This document shows positions 881 through 11,229 of a stretch of 64,000 nucleotides of DNA, one piece after another. Each line of letters starts with the position of its first letter. The first letter of the stretch is position 1. The position numbers and the translations under genes are program-made. Source of the stretch: Trichomonas vaginalis G3. Lineage: Eukaryota; Parabasalia; Trichomonadida; Trichomonadidae. Under the pieces are notes generated by a model that was given only the letters and a program-made list of their open reading frames with translations, was not told the DNA's origin and searched no databases. Location of the stretch: contig NC_067205.1 in the NCBI RefSeq assembly GCF_026262505.1, forward strand, positions 20,643,645 through 20,707,644, written 5' to 3'.

Positions 881-1942
881 CATTCAAAGGAAATTCGAGA
901 TGAAACATTTATTAAAAGCATATATTCAAGAGAACAAAATAATCCTCAATTCCATTTGCAATTTCAACAAAGTTTTTCTGATTATTACAATACAACTGAT
1001 TATGTTAATAAAACAGAGAACGAAACTATATCAGGGAATGGCAATTATTACATTCATGATGCAGTATTTTCTTACCATTATCAAAAAACAGCCATTTCCC
1101 TTAATTCTAGCAGCAAAGTATTACTTGAAATGTGCGCATTTTACAACAATAATTCCACCGAAAAAGGTGGATCGATAAATATCCAATATTCTGATTGTGT
1201 TTTAGTTCACATTTGTTTTTCTAATTCATCATCCACTGAAGATGGATGTGCATCTTATATAGAGGATTCTTCTCTAAGGAATCCCAAAAAAAGCTATGCA
1301 TTTGAGTGCTCGGTTTCAAAATGCATCGGGAAACAATATGCATTTGTTCATTCACTCGGAGATATCCAAATAAGTAATATGAATACATCTTATAACATAA
1401 TAACTACATGTGCTGGATGTTCTTTTCAAAGTTTATCCAATAGCATTTTAAATTTCACAACAGTATCAAATTGTTCATCTTCAGAATTCTGTATTGTTAT
1501 GGTCGGGTCTTTGACAAATAATGTTACAAACTGCAATTATTTAAACAATGAGTTTTCAGGAGATGAATCAGTAGATTCATCATCATCAGTAATTTCATGT
1601 CCTTTTTCATGTCCATTTTCAAATTGTTCATTCATGGGAAATAAAGGAAACTATTTATTTCCAGACAGACCAACTATTTTAAATTGTTTCTTTCATGAAA
1701 ACACGCTCATACGAACTGTGCAATTTGACCCATATAATTCATTTCGTGCGGAATCAATTGAATCATTTGATTCATTTATATCACATTATGCAGTTGAAGG
1801 ATGTCCAGGTGCATATTATCACAATAAAGATATATCAGATAAAAAAATTAAAAAAGAGAAAATAAAAATAAGAAATAAACTTGTCATTAATGTATATAGA
1901 GCATCATTCGGTGTAGCTCTATATTTATCCTCTATTTTATAG
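881..1942 (+). pseudogene. surface-protein family fragment (Pmp-like, beta-helix type repeats)
   Basis: An open frame of about 350 codons with no ATG near its start, so it looks 5'-truncated. It is rich in Asn, Ser and Cys and has short repeats of the kind CAFYNNNSTEKGGSI, reminiscent of polymorphic membrane protein (Pmp)-like parallel beta-helix proteins that are numerous in T. vaginalis. The C-terminal end has the family motif DSFISHY, a Cys, an NKDISD stretch and a lysine-rich segment, then a short hydrophobic tail. Paralogues lie at 2200, 5518, 6834 and 12948. Membership of the Pmp-like group is inference; the relation between the local copies is seen directly. Confidence 0.55.
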
Positions 1943-1958
1943 TTTATATATTAATAAA

Positions 1959-2174
1959 ATGTTAGGGGTTCAAAGAGCTAATGATGTTAAATCATACAGA
2001 ATCATTCTTGAAACGCTTTTCAAAGGTCGAAAATACACATTCGAGAATGATCTTGCACAGAAGATCAAAGATGAAAAAGAAATAACTTACAAGTTGAATG
2101 ATTTAAAAATTTTGAATAATTTTTGTCATGTTCATGAAGCCTTAAGCATGAATTTAATTCTCAAAATATTTTGA
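1959..2174 (+). CDS. small hypothetical protein, 71 aa
   Basis: A lysine-rich ORF that begins with ATG after an A+T-rich leader and ends 30 bp before the next surface-protein fragment. It is repeated without change at 6593-6808 in the tandem copy, but that copy is too young for this to show selection. No domain is recognised. It could equally be the tail of a degraded larger gene. Confidence 0.3.
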   Translation: MLGVQRANDVKSYRIILETLFKGRKYTFENDLAQKIKDEKEITYKLNDLKILNNFCHVHEALSMNLILKIF

Positions 2175-2199
2175 GTATTTAATTGGCCGGCCAAATCCC

Positions 2200-2786
2200 T
2201 TAGATCCGAAATCTATACTGAATGATTTCCTAATCACAAACTAATAAATATTAACAGAAATAGAAGAAAATCCAGTATGAAAAAATTATTCAAAATGAAT
2301 ATTCAAGCGAACAAAATAAGAATCAAATCCATCTACACTCTCATAATTTCACAACATCATTTAATACATCATCTTCAGAACAATCTACAATCAGTAATGA
2401 TGGTAAATTTAATATTACAAAATATAATTTTATAAATAACGAATATGAAGGAAGTGAAAATGCATTAATTAATGTCAGAGTACATGTATATATTTAAATT
2501 GTTCATTCATAGAAAATACAGGCAATTATTTTCAACAGGACCAACTATGGATAATTGTTACATTAGTAAAAACAAAGTCGATAACATTGTAAGAGATGAA
2601 ATATTATCTATTAAAAAGCCTCCATCATTTGATTCTTTTATATCTCATTATTCTACAGATAATTGTCATGCTTTTTATTTTTATAATAAAGATATTTCAG
2701 ATAAAGTACCAAAGAAAGTTAACATAAAAATTAAAATTGCTATCAATGTTTATAGAACATCATTTAGTGAAGTCCTAAACTTATAA
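2200..2786 (+). pseudogene. second surface-protein family fragment, internally deleted
   Basis: The leader (GGCCAAATCCC, then AGATCCGAAATC) resembles the leader of the fragment at 881, so the two are tandem paralogues. The middle of the protein is missing and at least one frameshift separates the N-terminal part from the C-terminal part. The latter keeps the family end: SFDSFISHYST, a Cys pair, NKDISD and a basic stretch before the stop. It is not expected to make a full protein. Confidence 0.5.
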
Positions 2787-2897
2787 TCTATATTGTGATT
2801 ACAAAAAGGGCTTTTTTTATTTATAAAATGTCAAAAAAATGAAATCTGACACTTTACAATTACTAAACTTTTTATTAATTAATATTGAGGATGTTTT

Positions 2898-3167
2898 ATT
2901 GTCGTCTGGAAAAAGTGACAAAATTATTATTGTCGTCTAAAAAGGTGACAAATTATTATTGTCGTCTGGAAAAGTGACAAAATTATCATTGTCGTCTAAA
3001 AAATAGATTTTTCAAGCATGTTTCGGTACCTAAATAAAGGAAGAACATCAATTCCATCTATGTATATAGTATGCAAACACGCATGATATATGGAGTAGCT
3101 CTTTATCTGGCTAAAAATCCTATTATTTGAAAATTCGCATTGTCGTCTAAAACAGCCAGACGACAAT
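2898..3167. repeat. small inverted-repeat element with internal GTCGTC repeats
   Basis: It begins ATTGTCGTCTGG and ends CCAGACGACAAT, a perfect 12-bp inverted repeat. The left half holds four spaced copies of ATTGTCGTCT followed by AAAAGTGACAAA-type sequence. No coding capacity is seen. The arrangement suggests a MITE-like non-autonomous element with subterminal repeats. The same element in the tandem copy is split by the hairpin-array insertion. Confidence 0.5.
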
Positions 3168-3209
3168 AATAATACCCTATTAATATAGATTATATAACAA
3201 AAAAAAATT

Positions 3210-4105
3210 TTAGATGTTTAATGAAGCCATTTCGTCAGATTCGCGTGTTTCATTGTTAGAATTATTTGAGTGTGCTTCATCAATAAGTTTAGTGAAAACA
3301 TTCTCAATAGTTGAAGATGTGCATGTGTAATACTTCAAAACGTGTTCTTCATTCTTCAAAACATTCAACTTTGTGAATAAATCTGCAATACTGATATCAT
3401 TCGAAGGAACTGTGTAAATGATAGAGCTGTGATGTTTAATGAGTTGTTTAGCTGTTTTGATGTTATTATTGATGTATTCTTCAACAATATTGATTGTTGT
3501 TGAATCTCCATTTGTCAAGATCAAATCAAACTTCCACTCTTTACCGAATTTGTTAGACAAATATGTTGGTGATCCAATAGTGTGGATACAGCCATCAATC
3601 ATGATTGTGATCTCATCACAAAGACTCTCTGCTTCTTCAATGATATGTGTGCACAAGATAAATGTTTTCGATCCTTTGTACATGTTGATAAGATGATGAA
3701 CTTTTCGACGACTGATTGGATCGAGAACTGATGTAGGTTCATCCAAAACAATGATTTTTGATTCTAACATGAACGCGATTGCAACTGATAATTTCTGTTT
3801 CAAACCTGCTGATAACTCACTAACAACACGGTTCTTGTGTCTTGTCATGTCCAAACTGTTCAATAAAAGATCAATGACACGTTCGCGTTCACTGTTTCGA
3901 ATACAAAAGAAATGACAGAAGAATTTCATTGTTTGAATAATTGTCAATTCTTCTGCCAAATGTGTGACGAACTGTGGACAATATCCAATCATTTCATCAC
4001 CGGAGATATCAATCGATCCACTCATCAAAGGTATTTGGTTGAGAAGGATATTCATCAATGTTGTTTTTCCTGCACCATTTGAACCCAACAAACCAAACAA
4101 GCAAC
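3210..4105 (-). pseudogene. ABC transporter nucleotide-binding domain, 5'-truncated duplicate
   Basis: It matches the C-terminal 40 percent of the intact gene at 8947-11229: Walker A GSNGAGKT, signature LSAGLKQKL, Walker B IIVLDEPT and the C-terminal regulatory segment. Homology stops within a few codons before Walker A, where unrelated DNA is joined. All transmembrane segments are lost and no ATG precedes Walker A in a sensible position. This is a duplication remnant and not a soluble ATPase gene, although the reading frame stays open. Confidence 0.85.
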
Positions 4106-5517: not shown

Positions 5518-6576
5518 CATTCAAAGGAAATTCGAGATGAAACATTTATTAAAAGCATATATTCAAGAGAACAAAATAATCCTCAATTCCATTTGCAATT
5601 TCAACAAAGTTTTTCTGATTATTACAATACAACTGATTATGTTAATAAAACAGAGAACGAAACTATATCAGGGAATGGCAATTATTACATTCATGATGCA
5701 GTATTTTCTTACCATTATCAAAAAACAGCCATTTCCCTTAATTCTAGCAGCAAAGTATTACTTGAAATGTGCGCATTTTACAACAATAATTCCACCGAAA
5801 AAGGTGGATCGATAAATATCCAATATTCTGATTGTGTTTTAGTTCACATTTGTTTTTCTAATTCATCATCCACTGAAGATGGATGTGCATCTTATATAGA
5901 GGATTCTTCTCTAAGGAATCCCAAAAAAGCTATGCATTTGAGTGCTCGGTTTCAAAATGCATCGGGAAACAATATGCATTTGTTCATTCACTCGGAGATA
6001 TCCAAATAAGTAATATGAATACATCTTATAACATAATAACTACATGTGCTGGATGTTCTTTTCAAAGTTTATCCAATAGCATTTTAAATTTCACAACAGT
6101 ATCAAATTGTTCATCTTCAGAATTCTGTATTGTTATGGTCGGGTCTTTGACAAATAATGTTACAAACTGCAATTATTTAAACAATGAGTTTTCAGGAGAT
6201 GAATCAGTAGATTCATCATCATCAGTAATTTCATGTCCTTTTTCATGTCCATTTTCAAATTGTTCATTCATGGGAAATAAAGGAAACTATTTATTTCCAG
6301 ACAGACCAACTATTTTAAATTGTTTCCTTCATGAAAACACGCTCATACGAACTGTGCAATTTGACCCATATAATTCATTTCGTGCGGAATCAATTGAATC
6401 ATTTGATTCATTTATATCATTATGCAGTTGAAGGATGTCCAGGTGCATATTATCACAATAAAGATATATCAGATAAAAAAATTAAAAAAGAGAAAATAAA
6501 AATAAGAAATAAACTTGTCATTAATGTATATAGAGCATCATTCGGTGTAGCTCTATATTTATCCTCTATTTTATAG
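5518..6576 (+). pseudogene. surface-protein family fragment, duplicate of 881-1942 with frameshifts
   Basis: It is nearly identical to the left copy but carries a one-base loss in an A run near 5925 and a two-base loss near 6418, just before the SLCS/HYAVEGC segment. The reading frame is therefore broken twice. The family C-terminal motifs (NKDISD, basic run, hydrophobic tail) are still present after the second break. Confidence 0.55.
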
Positions 6577-6592
6577 TTTATATATTAATAAA

Positions 6593-6808
6593 ATGTTAGG
6601 GGTTCAAAGAGCTAATGATGTTAAATCATACAGAATCATTCTTGAAACGCTTTTCAAAGGTCGAAAATACACATTCGAGAATGATCTTGCACAGAAGATC
6701 AAAGATGAAAAAGAAATAACTTACAAGTTGAATGATTTAAAAATTTTGAATAATTTTTGTCATGTTCATGAAGCCTTAAGCATGAATTTAATTCTCAAAA
6801 TATTTTGA
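6593..6808 (+). CDS. small hypothetical protein, 71 aa, duplicate of 1959-2174
   Basis: The sequence is the same as the left copy. It is followed by the same GGCCGGCC-containing leader of the next fragment. Nothing further can be said about function. Confidence 0.3.
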   Translation: MLGVQRANDVKSYRIILETLFKGRKYTFENDLAQKIKDEKEITYKLNDLKILNNFCHVHEALSMNLILKIF

Positions 6809-6833
6809 GTATTTAATTGGCCGGCCAAATCCC

Positions 6834-7426
6834 TTAGATCCGAAATCTATACTGAATGATTTCCTAATCACAAACTAATAAATATTAACAGAAATAGAAG
6901 AAAATCCAGTATGAAAAAAATATTCAAAATGAATATTCAAGCGAACAAAATAAGAATCAAATCCATCTACACTCTCATAATTTCACAACATCATTTAATA
7001 CATCATCTTCAGAACAATCTACAATCAGTAATGATGGTAAATTTAATATTACAAAATATAATTTTATAAATAACGAATATGAAGGAAGTGAAAATGCATT
7101 AATTAATGTCAGAGTACATGTATATATTTAAATTGTTCATTCATAGAAAATACAGGCAATTATTTTCAACAGGACCAACTATGGATAATTGTTACATTAG
7201 TAAAAACAAAGTCGATAACATTGTAAGAGATGAAATATTATCTATTAAAAAGCCTCCGTCATTTGATTCTTTTATATCTCATTATTCTACAGATAATTGT
7301 CATGCTTTTTATTTTTATAATAAAGATATTTCAGATAAAGTACCAAAGAAAGTTAACATAAAAATTAAAATTAAAATTGCTATCAATGTTTATAGAACAT
7401 CATTTAGTGAAGTCCTAAACTTATAA
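6834..7426 (+). pseudogene. second surface-protein family fragment, duplicate
   Basis: Counterpart of 2200-2786, with two extra codons of Lys-Ile repeat near the C-terminus. Internally deleted and frameshifted in the same way, so the decay predates the duplication. Confidence 0.5.
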
Positions 7427-7677
7427 TCTATATTGTGATTACAAAAAGGGCTTTTTTTATTTATAAAATGTCAAAAAAATGAAATCTGACACTTTACAAT
7501 TACTAAACTTTTTATTAATTAATATTGAGGATGTTTTATTGTCGTCTGGAAAAAGTGACAAAATTATTATTGTCGTCTAAAAAGGTGACAAATTATTATT
7601 GTCGTCTGGAAAAGTGACAAAATTATCATTGTCGTCTAAAAAATAGATTTTTCAAGCATGTTTCGGTACCTAAATAA

Positions 7678-7683
7678 AGGAAG
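7678..7683. repeat. target-site duplication, left (AGGAAG)
   Basis: AGGAAG occurs here and again at 8781-8786, but only once at the uninterrupted site 3038-3043. Confidence 0.85.
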
Positions 7684-8780
7684 TGTTGTAAACGAAAACG
7701 ATAAAAACGGTTTGTCAGAAAAAGTGACACTTTACATGGCAAAAAATAGAGCCTTACTTTTGAGATACTTGAGATTGAAACTGAATCTTATGAGGCGGTG
7801 ATCTTGAATCACTACCTCATAAGGTTCAGTTTCATATAAAATTTGTTGCAATTTGTTATTCTTTTGCAATTATTTCTTATAAGATTTTACATCTTTTAGC
7901 GGGGAATGTTTGTTATCATGTATTATTATAAATATCTACACGATAACGAACATTCCTCGCTAAATTGCTGAGAAACTTTGAGGAAATGTCGAACAATTTC
8001 CTCAAAGTTTCTCAGATTTATATAGATCACTAGAGTCCCCTAGGCACTGATTCTGGTTCAGTACCTAGGAGCTCTAGTTCTCTAACGAACTGATAAAATG
8101 TTTTTAAATTTTTGGATATTGCTACCTGTGAAGCACTGACTTCAAGTCAGTACCTCACAGGTAGCAATTACATTGAAAGATGGAGAAACTTTGTCCGAAT
8201 GTTAAACTATTCGGACAAAGTTTCTCCCATTTGTAGTGGAGATGGAAGGCTTTGAGGTATATTATATTAATGTATACCCCAAAGCCTTCCATCTCCACTT
8301 GAAAGTTCCAAAACTTTGGGTTAATTGCAAACTATTAACCCAAAGTTTTGGAACTTTCTAGAAGGAATTGCAGGGTAAGAGGTACATATTCATACTATGT
8401 ACCTCTTACCCTCCAATTCCTTCCTTAACATAAACAAATTTGGAGTTAATTGTTTGCAATTAACTCCGGGTTTGTTGACCTCCAAATGAAAATGAAAGGG
8501 TAAGAGGTATATAGTGACCCTATATGCCTCTTACCCTTTCATTCTCATTAATTATGGGAGAAACTTTGGCCGAATGTTAAATTATTCGACCAAAGTTTTC
8601 CCATTTTTTGAAGGGATTGGAGGCTATGAGATACTGATGCAATGTCAGTACCTCATGGCCTCCAATTCCATCCTGAAACTGATCAAAGTGGACCTTACAT
8701 GCATTTGAAATTTGCCATGTAAAGTCCACTTTTTGAGAGAGAGGATTTGACTGCGTCAAATCCTCTTTTTCGTTTACGAG
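7684..8780. mobile_element. hairpin-array insertion element, 1,097 bp, non-coding
   Basis: Inserted DNA flanked by 6-bp AGGAAG duplications, with an empty site in the left tandem copy. Near its ends it has inverted GTAAACGAAAA. No ORF of note. From about 7776 to 8766 it is nearly continuous hairpins, each with stems of about 11-26 bp and loops of about 3-20 nt: 7776-7834, 7896-7963, 7968-8015, 8030-8077, 8118-8168, 8180-8227, 8234-8300, 8301-8358, 8361-8423, 8433-8476, 8485-8549, 8554-8603, 8612-8675, 8684-8733 and 8739-8766. It could be a non-autonomous DNA transposon, a foldback element or a hairpin-RNA precursor. No transposase is encoded, so any mobility would need help in trans. Confidence 0.8.
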
Positions 8781-8786
8781 AGGAAG
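8781..8786. repeat. target-site duplication, right (AGGAAG)
   Basis: Second copy of the 6-bp direct repeat that bounds the hairpin-array element. Confidence 0.85.
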
Positions 8787-8946
8787 AACATCAATTCCAT
8801 CTATGTATATAGTATGCAAACACGCATGATATATGGAGTAGTTCTTTATCTGGCTAAAAATCCTATTATTTGAAAATTCGCATTGTCGTCTAAAACCGCC
8901 AGACGACAATAATAATACCCTATTAATATTATATAACAAAAAAAAT

Positions 8947-11229
8947 TTAGATGTTTAATGAAGCCATTTCGTCAGATTCGCGTGTTTCATTGTTAGAATT
9001 ATTTGAGTGTGCTTCATCAATAAGTTTAGTGAAAACATTCTCAATAGTTGAAGATGTGCATGTGTAATACTTCAAAACGTGTTCTTCGTTCTTCAAAACA
9101 TTCAACTTTGTGAATAAATCTGCAATACTGATATCATTCGAAGGAACTGTGTAAATGATAGAGCTGTGATGTTTAATGAGTTGTTTAGCTGTTTTGATGT
9201 TATTATTGATGTATTCTTCAACAATATTGATTGTTGTTGAATCTCCATTTGTCAAGATCAAATCAAACTTCCACTCTTTACCGAATTTGTTAGACAAATA
9301 TGTTGGTGATCCAATAGTGTGGATACAGCCATCAATCATGATTGTGATCTCATCACAAAGACTCTCTGCTTCTTCAATGATATGTGTGCACAAGATAAAT
9401 GTTTTCGATCCTTTGTACATGTTGATAAGATGATGAACTTTTCGACGACTGATTGGATCGAGAACTGATGTAGGTTCATCCAAAACAATGATTTTTGATT
9501 CTAACATGAACGCGATTGCAACTGATAATTTCTGTTTCAAACCTGCTGATAACTCACTAACAACACGGTTCTTGTGTCTTGTCATGTCCAAACTGTTCAA
9601 TAAAAGATCAATGACACGTTCGCGTTCACTGTTTCGAATACAAAAGAAATGACAGAAGAATTTCATTGTTTGAATAATTGTCAATTCTTCTGCCAAATGT
9701 GTGACGAACTGTGGACAATATCCAATCATTTCATCACTGGAGATATCAATCGATCCACTCATCAAAGGTATTTGGTTCAGAAGGATATTCATCAATGTTG
9801 TTTTTCCTGCACCATTTGAACCCAACAAACCAAACAAACAACCATCCTTGATGCCAAGTGATACATTGTTAACTGCATTGATGTTTTTGCGTTTTGTATC
9901 TTTGTAAACTTTACAAACATCAACTAATCTGATCTTGTAATCACCTGGATGTGAATTTCTCACTTCTTCTTCCATGGCGATTGCTTCTTCTGATATCTTT
10001 TGACTCTCCTTAACTTGTATCATGTTTTCACTGATACTTTGTGACAATTTAATACTCATTCTCTTAATTCTCTTGTTCATGAGCTCCATAGGTGCCAAAA
10101 GAACAAACCATAGCACAAAGCAAACAAATGTATACATGTATTGTTCCTTCCTTGTGTATCCGAAATAATATAAATGAGTTAATATGGCAGAAGGAGCTGA
10201 AAAAGGGTATAAACATGGTATATCGAAGTAGTCCTTAAACAATACACCTTGTTCGTTCATCAAAAGCATACTATAAACTACAGAAATTGATACTCCAGCT
10301 ACAGCATAGCCAACAAAGGCCACAAACTTGGAAGAAACCATGTAGGCAAAGAAATATGATACTTCTACGTATAATGAATTGGCTATTATTATAGATAATA
10401 ATGATAAATAAGGATGATCACAAAAAAGTTCGAATTTCATGAACATAAACATCGCCCATGCAATTATTACACATGGAGTAGTTGCAATAAGGTCAGCAAT
10501 GTATGTTCCGGTCCAATAAGCCAGTAAATTTAATTGATATAACTCTAGATAAGTTCTTCTCATCGTATAAAGGTCGTCCATTGTGTAGAATAATGGGAAG
10601 ATGCCAATAATGATTAAGCAGACAATTAAAATAACCAATTTATTTTGATTATAATCGGAATCTTCAGCACTGACTTTATGATAGAAAATATGGGTGTCCC
10701 AATAAGTACTGTTTGTCTCGTACATGTAGATAGCCTTCTGTAATATCAATGAAGCTGAAGATTTTGGATAAAATTTTTCTTGGTAAACTGAATCTTCATG
10801 CATATAAGCTTTCGGATATCCGGCTCCATTTTTAGAGAAATTGAACGCAAAGAAAAGAGGATGTTCGGGATTTTTATCATTATAGTTTAAAAAAGACTCA
10901 TCATCGCTTAAATTTACTGAATTTGGTGTTATCCCTGTATCGTATTTAATAATATTTTTGACATTTTCTAAAATCTCTTTTGTATAATTTTGAATTTCGG
11001 GATCTTTTGTAAAAATAACGCCGAAGTTGATGGATTTTGTGTTCAATAGTTGAAACTGTGAATATCCGGTAACTGAATTATTGTGGCTCGTCAAAGCTAA
11101 GATAAGATCAATCAAATTTGAGAAAAAGACAAGAGCGATGGTCGAAGTAATTAAGTAAATTATATGGCGCCAATAAATTATTAATCTTCTGTATAAAATT
11201 GAGTAGGTAACTTCAAAAAACTTCCACAT
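8947..11229 (-). CDS. ABCA-type ABC half transporter
   Basis: A membrane ATPase of about 760 aa, probably moving lipids or other amphipathic compounds as in the ABCA family; the substrate cannot be told. Order: one N-terminal membrane helix, a hydrophilic non-cytoplasmic loop of about 150 residues, a cluster of five to six helices, then one nucleotide-binding domain. Walker A (GSNGAGKT) is near residue 470, the signature LSAGLKQKL follows, Walker B (IIVLDEPT) is near 580 and the H-loop is CTHIIEEAE. Start: the frame extends further upstream but only into an inserted element and has no earlier ATG. The first ATG (MWKFFEV) lies 21 nt after an Inr-like TCATTTTT. A truncated duplicate lies at 3210-4105. 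Confidence 0.85.
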   Translation of the reverse strand: MWKFFEVTYSILYRRLIIYWRHIIYLITSTIALVFFSNLIDLILALTSHNNSVTGYSQFQLLNTKSINFGVIFTKDPEIQNYTKEILENVKNIIKYDTGITPNSVNLSDDESFLNYNDKNPEHPLFFAFNFSKNGAGYPKAYMHEDSVYQEKFYPKSSASLILQKAIYMYETNSTYWDTHIFYHKVSAEDSDYNQNKLVILIVCLIIIGIFPLFYTMDDLYTMRRTYLELYQLNLLAYWTGTYIADLIATTPCVIIAWAMFMFMKFELFCDHPYLSLLSIIIANSLYVEVSYFFAYMVSSKFVAFVGYAVAGVSISVVYSMLLMNEQGVLFKDYFDIPCLYPFSAPSAILTHLYYFGYTRKEQYMYTFVCFVLWFVLLAPMELMNKRIKRMSIKLSQSISENMIQVKESQKISEEAIAMEEEVRNSHPGDYKIRLVDVCKVYKDTKRKNINAVNNVSLGIKDGCLFGLLGSNGAGKTTLMNILLNQIPLMSGSIDISSDEMIGYCPQFVTHLAEELTIIQTMKFFCHFFCIRNSERERVIDLLLNSLDMTRHKNRVVSELSAGLKQKLSVAIAFMLESKIIVLDEPTSVLDPISRRKVHHLINMYKGSKTFILCTHIIEEAESLCDEITIMIDGCIHTIGSPTYLSNKFGKEWKFDLILTNGDSTTINIVEEYINNNIKTAKQLIKHHSSIIYTVPSNDISIADLFTKLNVLKNEEHVLKYYTCTSSTIENVFTKLIDEAHSNNSNNETRESDEMASLNI

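Follow-up and report, generated by a model that had tools for sequence, protein, structure and literature searches.

Within a 64,000-nucleotide stretch of the Trichomonas vaginalis G3 genome (hereafter, the window), slightly more than 1 kb of DNA consists almost entirely of consecutive hairpins, which raises the questions of what kind of genetic element this is and how such a row of hairpins could have been kept. An initial annotation, made from the sequence alone, described a mobile element of 1,097 bp that is bounded by AGGAAG duplications, carries no gene, and contains about 14-15 hairpins of the size of small-RNA precursors.

Insertion, ends and genomic copies

Alignment of the flanks with a paralogous empty site in the same window delineates a clean insertion of 1,098 bp (7684-8781; Table 1): flank 7301-7683 aligns to 2667-3043 at 98.4%, and flank 8781-9000 aligns to 3038-3263 at 96.5%, with the element absent there. 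The proposed insertion is thereby confirmed, with its length corrected to that given by the copies. The AGGAAG repeat is present as well but is best read as a 5-bp GGAAG duplication beside the terminal A; a 6-bp duplication, and with it a link to Polintons, was rejected because the copies show 4 bp. The window also contains a block of about 4.6 kb that is partly doubled (1593-3263 and 6229-9000; 98.4% and 96.5% in the aligned parts), with equal tandem-repeat arrays in both block copies, at 2896 and 7536. Because the hairpin element is found only in the second block copy, the insertion probably occurred after the block duplication.

Comparison of the copies places the element termini at TGTTGTAAACGAAAA..TTTTCGTTTACGAGA, with a 15-bp terminal inverted repeat (TIR) that includes two mismatches and falls within the range of the IS481EU transposons (mostly <50 bp). 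When 48 copies were reduced by flank comparison to 39 distinct insertion sites, 4-bp target duplications were identified at 31 of these, a 5-bp duplication at one (the window copy), and duplications of 0-2 bp at six; the one other site is ambiguous, its 27-bp match lying in a tandem repeat. A second empty site is available for a further copy, L084 (441 bp), which is flanked by CTAC and CCAC and whose element-free counterpart lies inside the transposase-carrying element L083. No ORF of at least 150 aa overlaps the element, in agreement with its description as gene-free.

The element search covered the 180.85-Mb T. vaginalis G3 genome. Among 1,036 first-look candidates, 40 places were scored, and 38 of these are full length or nearly so, with 96-100% identity; the element is thus not peculiar to one locus, and the genome search that the initial annotation had proposed as a test did reveal other copies. 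The first 22 nt of the left end match the genome 370 times and the right end 218 times (up to two mismatches; 0 in the controls), numbers that are not counts of hairpin copies because duplicated segments are included and the left end is shared by L072, L073 and L083. The larger number of left ends suggests either other elements sharing this end, such as these three, or more extensive decay of the right side. At least 44 of the 100 listed left ends (of 370) have a listed right end (100 of 218) 200-6,000 bp away. Searches for end variants produced 10 sites against 2 in the control for the left end, yielding L067-L076, and 5 against 2 for the right end; L067 was rejected as a chance match, with the element absent. 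The exact left-end pattern had no match in viral contigs, a collection from which records of T. vaginalis G3 may have been left out.

The lengths of the copies fall into groups around 1,100, 976 and 850 bp, and a single copy has 724 bp. Whether the ends and the number of hairpins are constant, as the initial annotation had asked, therefore receives a divided answer: the ends are common to the copies, whereas the lengths vary in steps of about 125 bp. Most of the aligned deletions extend from spacer to spacer, but L035 has lost 35 bp within hairpin 3, and in L084 the joints fall within hairpins. Because short copies (724-856 bp, and one of 441 bp) were inserted as well, insertion does not require the full array. 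The median pairwise difference among 27 long copies is 1.2%; the copies represent a non-random sample because part of them were picked for a high score and part for an odd left end.

The empty sites, the many copies, the TIR and the target duplications bear out the proposal of a mobile element. It is a non-autonomous DNA transposon that fits the description of MITEs, being short, without a long ORF, flanked by a near-constant duplication, equipped with a TIR, and present in many copies. The element is real and abundant, and its general kind is already known.

In two regions, element ends recur at many regular steps, of about 9.8 kb on contig C3 (near 21.42-21.57 Mb) and of about 15 kb on contig C5 (near 7.89-8.17 Mb), which looks like segmental duplication carrying the ends along. 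On contig C4 (15246466-15248633), a left and a right end are separated by 2,168 bp, roughly twice the usual length.

Table 1. Features of the hairpin element and its surroundings in window coordinates (dyads in coordinates of the consensus)
Feature	Position	Strand	Basis or remark
Whole element, 1,098 bp	7684..8781	+	Empty site in window; ends common to copies
Paralogous empty site without element	2667..3263	+	Flank alignment
Left target-site duplication GGAAG	7679..7683	+	Copy comparison
Right target-site duplication GGAAG	8782..8786	+	Copy comparison
Left terminal inverted repeat TGTTGTAAACGAAAA	7684..7698	+	Copy comparison; end matches in genome
Right terminal inverted repeat, TCTCGTAAACGAAAA read on - strand	8767..8781	-	Copy comparison
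Left-end region, 91% with transposase-carrying copies L072 and L083	7684..7750	+	
Hairpin 1 (class 1)	7776..7834	+	Dyad 121
Hairpin 2 (no class; best score 14, with hairpin 9)	7895..7964	+	Dyad 246, on lattice
Hairpin 3 (class 2)	7968..8015	+	Dyad 308.5
Hairpin 4 (class 1)	8027..8080	+	Dyad 371
Hairpin 5 (class 1)	8118..8168	+	Dyad 461
Hairpin 6 (class 2)	8181..8230	+	Dyad 523.5
Hairpin 7 (class 1)	8235..8299	+	Dyad 586
Hairpin 8 (class 2)	8301..8358	+	Dyad 648.5; loop of window copy inverted relative to most copies
Hairpin 9 (class 1)	8361..8423	+	Dyad 711
Hairpin 10 (class 2)	8433..8476	+	Dyad 773.5
Hairpin 11 (class 1)	8485..8549	+	Dyad 836
Hairpin 12 (class 2)	8554..8604	+	Dyad 898.5
Hairpin 13 (class 1)	8610..8672	+	Dyad 961
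Hairpin 14 (no class)	8685..8732	+	Dyad 1028.5, off lattice
Hairpin 15 (no class)	8735..8771	+	Dyad 1073, off lattice; overlaps right end

Relationship to transposase-carrying elements

Over 67 bp, the left end of the hairpin element has 91% identity with L072 and L083, which are copies of an element in which the shared end is followed by a transposase gene on the opposite strand. These two copies are 96.7% alike over about 1.5 kb and therefore represent one family, not two independent witnesses. The frame of L072 is broken; the longer piece matches rve (PF00665, 3.3e-10), with IS481 as the best NCBIfam match (NF033577, 1e-16, below the curated cut-off), and the shorter piece has no profile match. 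In L069, a diverged relative with 68% protein identity over 212 residues, a similar end was recognized by eye beside the gene, and in L027, the hairpin element is inserted in a gene of the L069-type transposase kind. Judging from the common end, a transposase of the L072/L083 type would move the hairpin element. The right end of the transposase-carrying partner was not found in L082, L083 or L086, and given that no partner with both ends was detected, we infer mobilization in trans rather than observe it.

Other candidate connections were rejected. None of 30 IS481-like loci, taken from 63 that were scored among 1,639 candidates in the family search, has element ends within 1,500 bp (up to two mismatches), so none of these loci was regarded as the close partner. 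The idea that hairpin arrays regularly belong to the transposase elements was rejected as well: L085 (601 bp) and L086 (1,301 bp), which represent the N-terminal flanks of two transposase genes, show no match with the element, although L083 contains a short remnant (see below). In 6 of the 51 transposase places taken first from a total of 129, a listed element end (100 of the 370 left and 100 of the 218 right ends were listed) occurs within 6 kb, a proximity that may be explained by local clustering of transposons.

Several structures in these elements deserve mention in their own right. L073, on the minus strand, is an element of 296 bp that has a similar left end but lacks a hairpin array; it may represent a second short family of non-autonomous elements served by the same transposase. 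The N-terminal flank of the L072 transposase gene contains a 404-bp palindrome that is 88% complementary (L082:1-404). Upstream of the transposase gene of L083, a stretch of 41-43 bp (L083:1147-1189) resembles part of a class 1 hairpin (see below) and could be left over from an array that the parent element carried.

For short non-autonomous transposons, the ends are usually regarded as sufficient. The hairpin array could be a passenger, that is, a pre-existing hairpin satellite captured by an ordinary short derivative of an autonomous transposon. The left end in common with the transposase element, the class 1-like stretch in L083 and the differences of about 125 bp between the copy lengths are all compatible with such a capture, but we consider it very unlikely, given that a passenger array would be expected to lose both register and pairing at the divergence between its units that is described in the next section.

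The hairpin lattice and its upkeep

The consensus of the long copies contains 15 strong hairpins, each with 14-29 Watson-Crick pairs, in line with the original count. Such a row is indeed beyond chance, as the initial annotation held: the local fold (RNA parameters, pair span of up to 110) amounts to -530 kcal/mol, compared to -208 +/- 11 kcal/mol for 100 dinucleotide shuffles (z ~ -30), and among the remaining 1,098-bp tiles of the window, the best value is -254 kcal/mol. The stems had also been taken to be independent, which is not the case, because 12 of the 15 fall into two homologous classes, class 1 (hairpins 1, 4, 5, 7, 9, 11 and 13) and class 2 (hairpins 3, 6, 8, 10 and 12). Members of a class are linked by scores of at least 14, although not all pairs within a class score high; between the classes, scores stay at or below 13, which is the 99% point of the null.

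In the consensus of 29 long copies, the dyads of hairpins 5-13 follow one another at exact 62.5-bp steps (eight of eight intervals), with classes 1 and 2 alternating throughout; a step of 90 interrupts the lattice between hairpins 4 and 5. The ungapped autocorrelation peaks at 125, 250 and 375. Symmetry about two dyads 62.5 bp apart forces a 125-bp period, which makes the interior an alternating inverted repeat. With nine dyads pooled, reflection identity in the sequence beyond the stems, spacers included, is 0.47-0.53, compared to 0.24-0.28 at centres off the lattice. The values differ from dyad to dyad, and at hairpin 5 the symmetry ends with the stem. The exact lattice is a property of the consensus, since hairpins 2, 4, 6 and 12 of the window copy are missing single bases. 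Hairpin 4 is not called in L077, L070 and L080 each have one 61.5 step at a deletion joint, and L032, a degenerate copy of 962 bp, keeps few of the lattice dyads. The geometry is demonstrated by these comparisons, and its purpose is what we infer below.

The age of the array is apparent from the comparison of four units that comprise hairpins 6 to 13 only. In register, the units are 39-69% identical in a gapless alignment, and 193 of the 220 pair cells are Watson-Crick. The unit-pair comparisons include 87 cases where both sides changed and are still paired, 168 where they are the same, and 74 changed ones with at least one broken pair. When the pairing centre is slid, matching drops from 0.84-0.90 to 0.13-0.42.

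Covariation across copies, assessed in 29 of the 40 listed elements, involves fewer changes: 99.0% of the 8,453 cells are paired, and both sides have changed in 10 of 329 pairs, a number reached in none of 500 shuffles and falling to 1-3 when the pairing is slid. The structure was derived from one of the aligned rows, which gives it an advantage over the slid versions. These changes map to hairpins 8 (five), 9 (three), 12 and 15, those in hairpin 8 mostly forming one mirrored block, so that few events in four hairpins underlie them. For one measure, further pair types, the copies do not stand out from the shuffles (29 against 27.8; 138 of 500). None of the 90 stem substitutions in the 29 copies is a compensated change (95% upper bound 3.3%). 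The compensatory changes envisaged by the initial annotation are accordingly present across copies and between units, but not among the substitutions of resident copies. The substitution rate in these 29 copies is 0.44% in stems and 0.84% in spacers (p = 1e-4), a gap that we do not take as proof because base context was uncontrolled.

The unit region of 27 recent copies (the 29 long ones minus the divergent L031 and L075, with hairpins scored as inverted skipped) shows 52 substitutions together with 26 one-base indels, the latter distributed over 21 places, and all eight intervals are intact in 14 of the 27. Of the 21 deleted bases, 16 are in homopolymers; some of the indels may therefore be assembly errors, which would inflate the indel contrast. 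At any usual indel rate, units so diverged would be expected to have lost their register, yet it was kept, and on this we chiefly base the case for selection in the lineage that transposes. The 125-bp period follows from tandem duplication and the half-period spacing from an alternating origin; only the absence of indels and the pairing of the arms demand upkeep. It had been suggested that the array is either very young or has its stems kept; both hold, and these are not alternatives, the copies being young (1.2%) and the array, with its co-varying arms, old.

The hairpins recombine as DNA, as indicated by exact loop inversions in single copies. Among the 29-39 copies examined per hairpin, such inversions affect hairpin 3 (L011), hairpin 6 (L017 and L070) and hairpin 8 (L001, the window copy, and L002), and in L016, the inner part only of hairpin 9 is inverted; the inverted hairpins have perfect or near-perfect stems. 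L078 was rejected as inverted, having a longer loop instead. Subfamily mosaics are found in L080 and, within hairpin 8, in L024, L031 and L069.

Recombination of this kind makes it possible, although we find it doubtful, that the upkeep is neutral, with the array originating by fold-back or a rolling hairpin and its arms being matched by template switching or cruciform recombination, without any function. The loop inversions in hairpins 3, 6, 8 and 9, the mirrored block changes in both arms of hairpins 8 and 9, and the extension of the pooled reflection symmetry into the spacers (0.47 vs 0.24) all fit such a process, and the one-armed hairpin 8 of L024, L031 and L069 may represent its intermediates or recombinants. 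However, the absence of mirrored changes among the 90 resident stem substitutions speaks against it and led us to reject arm-to-arm conversion in resident copies as the sole upkeep; moreover, a lattice free of indels over 500 bp at such divergence is left unexplained.

The mismatches in the consensus stems comprise 13 G-T, 11 A-C and 5 others. Selection at the transcript level would favour G-U over A-C on one strand, so the lack of such an excess counts against RNA and, jointly with the exact spacing, makes it more likely that the DNA itself takes part in mobility than that the hairpins are small-RNA precursors. The Rfam search returned 70 matches at E <= 1, the best at 5.9e-6, and none at the gathering score, so that no curated precursor family was matched. 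In a published small-RNA survey, miRNAs account for 0.0046% of the T. vaginalis data (PMC7844918). On these grounds, we disfavour the suggestion that the hairpins are small-RNA precursors. More broadly, transcription of the element into dsRNA or small-RNA precursors that serve silencing, or act as decoys, is unlikely: the stems are long, near-perfect and precursor-sized, and T. vaginalis encodes Argonaute and Dicer, with small RNAs of ~34 nt that correlate with lower expression of genes and transposons (PMC7845603), but independent RNA precursors would not need exactly spaced dyads.

We tentatively favour, as an explanation that may well be correct while falling somewhat short of probable, a non-autonomous transposon that is served in trans by an IS481EU-type transposase and whose old alternating array is kept for a role of the DNA in cis. 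An IS481-like DDE transposase of the IS481EU kind would move the element. The interior would consist of a module of ~62.5 bp in the order X, X reversed, X and so on, each junction forming a hairpin dyad, and in the transposing lineage, the dyad spacing would have stayed fixed and the arms complementary while the letters diverged. The array would act as a set of evenly phased palindromic sites that may be bound by the transposase or a host protein, the presumed binders, or be extruded as cruciforms, and would thereby aid synapsis or copying of the element. Selection on mobility would then keep the lattice.

The DNA helix has ~10.4 bp per turn, so 62.5 bp correspond to about six turns. It is conceivable, if uncertain, that the interior is a functional one-dimensional lattice of palindromes in alternating reflection, with dyads on one helix face about six turns apart, that forms a DNA scaffold promoting transposition. 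Such a lattice, possibly selected for spacing and self-complementarity and mostly not for sequence, might take the form of a protein filament or a row of cruciforms.

Most of the interior of the element points to long-term upkeep of geometry, in both spacing and pairing, rather than of sequence. If this geometry serves mobility, selection would here be acting on the internal shape of the DNA, which is unusual for a transposon. The many copies, with length steps of ~125 bp and single-copy loop inversions, also provide a natural series for measuring hairpin recombination and decay in a eukaryotic genome.

Comparison with known systems

A literature search found no described hairpin lattice in T. 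vaginalis. The word 'hairpin' is absent from the main text of the survey of parabasalid IS481EU transposons, taken there to include Banshee (Kojima 2023, PMC10045372), and in a recent study of strain IR-78, 29.89% is left as unclassified repeats (PMC12589397). The interior geometry, described nowhere that we found, appears to be new, whereas the element family may already bear a name in Repbase.

IS481EU elements have target duplications of about 4, 15 or 25 bp and a TIR mostly below 50 bp, with TNT..AYA termini in T. vaginalis (PMC10045372). The hairpin element resembles them in its host, its TGT start, its mostly 4-bp duplications, its short TIR, and the apparently IS481-like transposase of the element that shares its end, and non-autonomous IS481EU families are known (PMC10045372). 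It differs at the 3' terminus, which is AGA instead of AYA, while the 5' TGT fits the published signature (PMC10045372). Seven non-autonomous IS481EU families are reported from T. vaginalis (PMC10045372).

The TGTNR start, the 4-5-bp duplications and the integrase-like enzyme of Ginger2/TDD elements are also similar (PMC2836005). In contrast, a preference for RTATAY targets and an H2C2 zinc finger are features of Ginger2 (PMC2836005), whereas the L072 piece best matches IS481 models; within the four-base scope of the duplications, TATA occurs in none of the 31 that are 4 bp long. Polinton/Maverick elements are described in the IS481EU survey as generating 6-bp duplications (PMC10045372). The hairpin element, with mostly 4-bp duplications and a 15-bp TIR, is different. 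Polintons and Mavericks also carry long TIRs.

Foldback-type elements, such as FB and Galileo, have long terminal inverted repeats that are built from repeats. The hairpin element is like them in combining internal repeats and palindromes in a DNA transposon, and unlike them in having many separate hairpins arranged in one lattice between short ends. Bacterial REP/BIME sequences are short repeats whose palindromes alternate in arrays, and a transposase acting in trans spreads them; they depend on another enzyme class and lack both a TIR and target duplications. The element of T. vaginalis differs from REP/BIME in these three respects and resembles them in its alternating palindromes and in the transposase that would act on it in trans.
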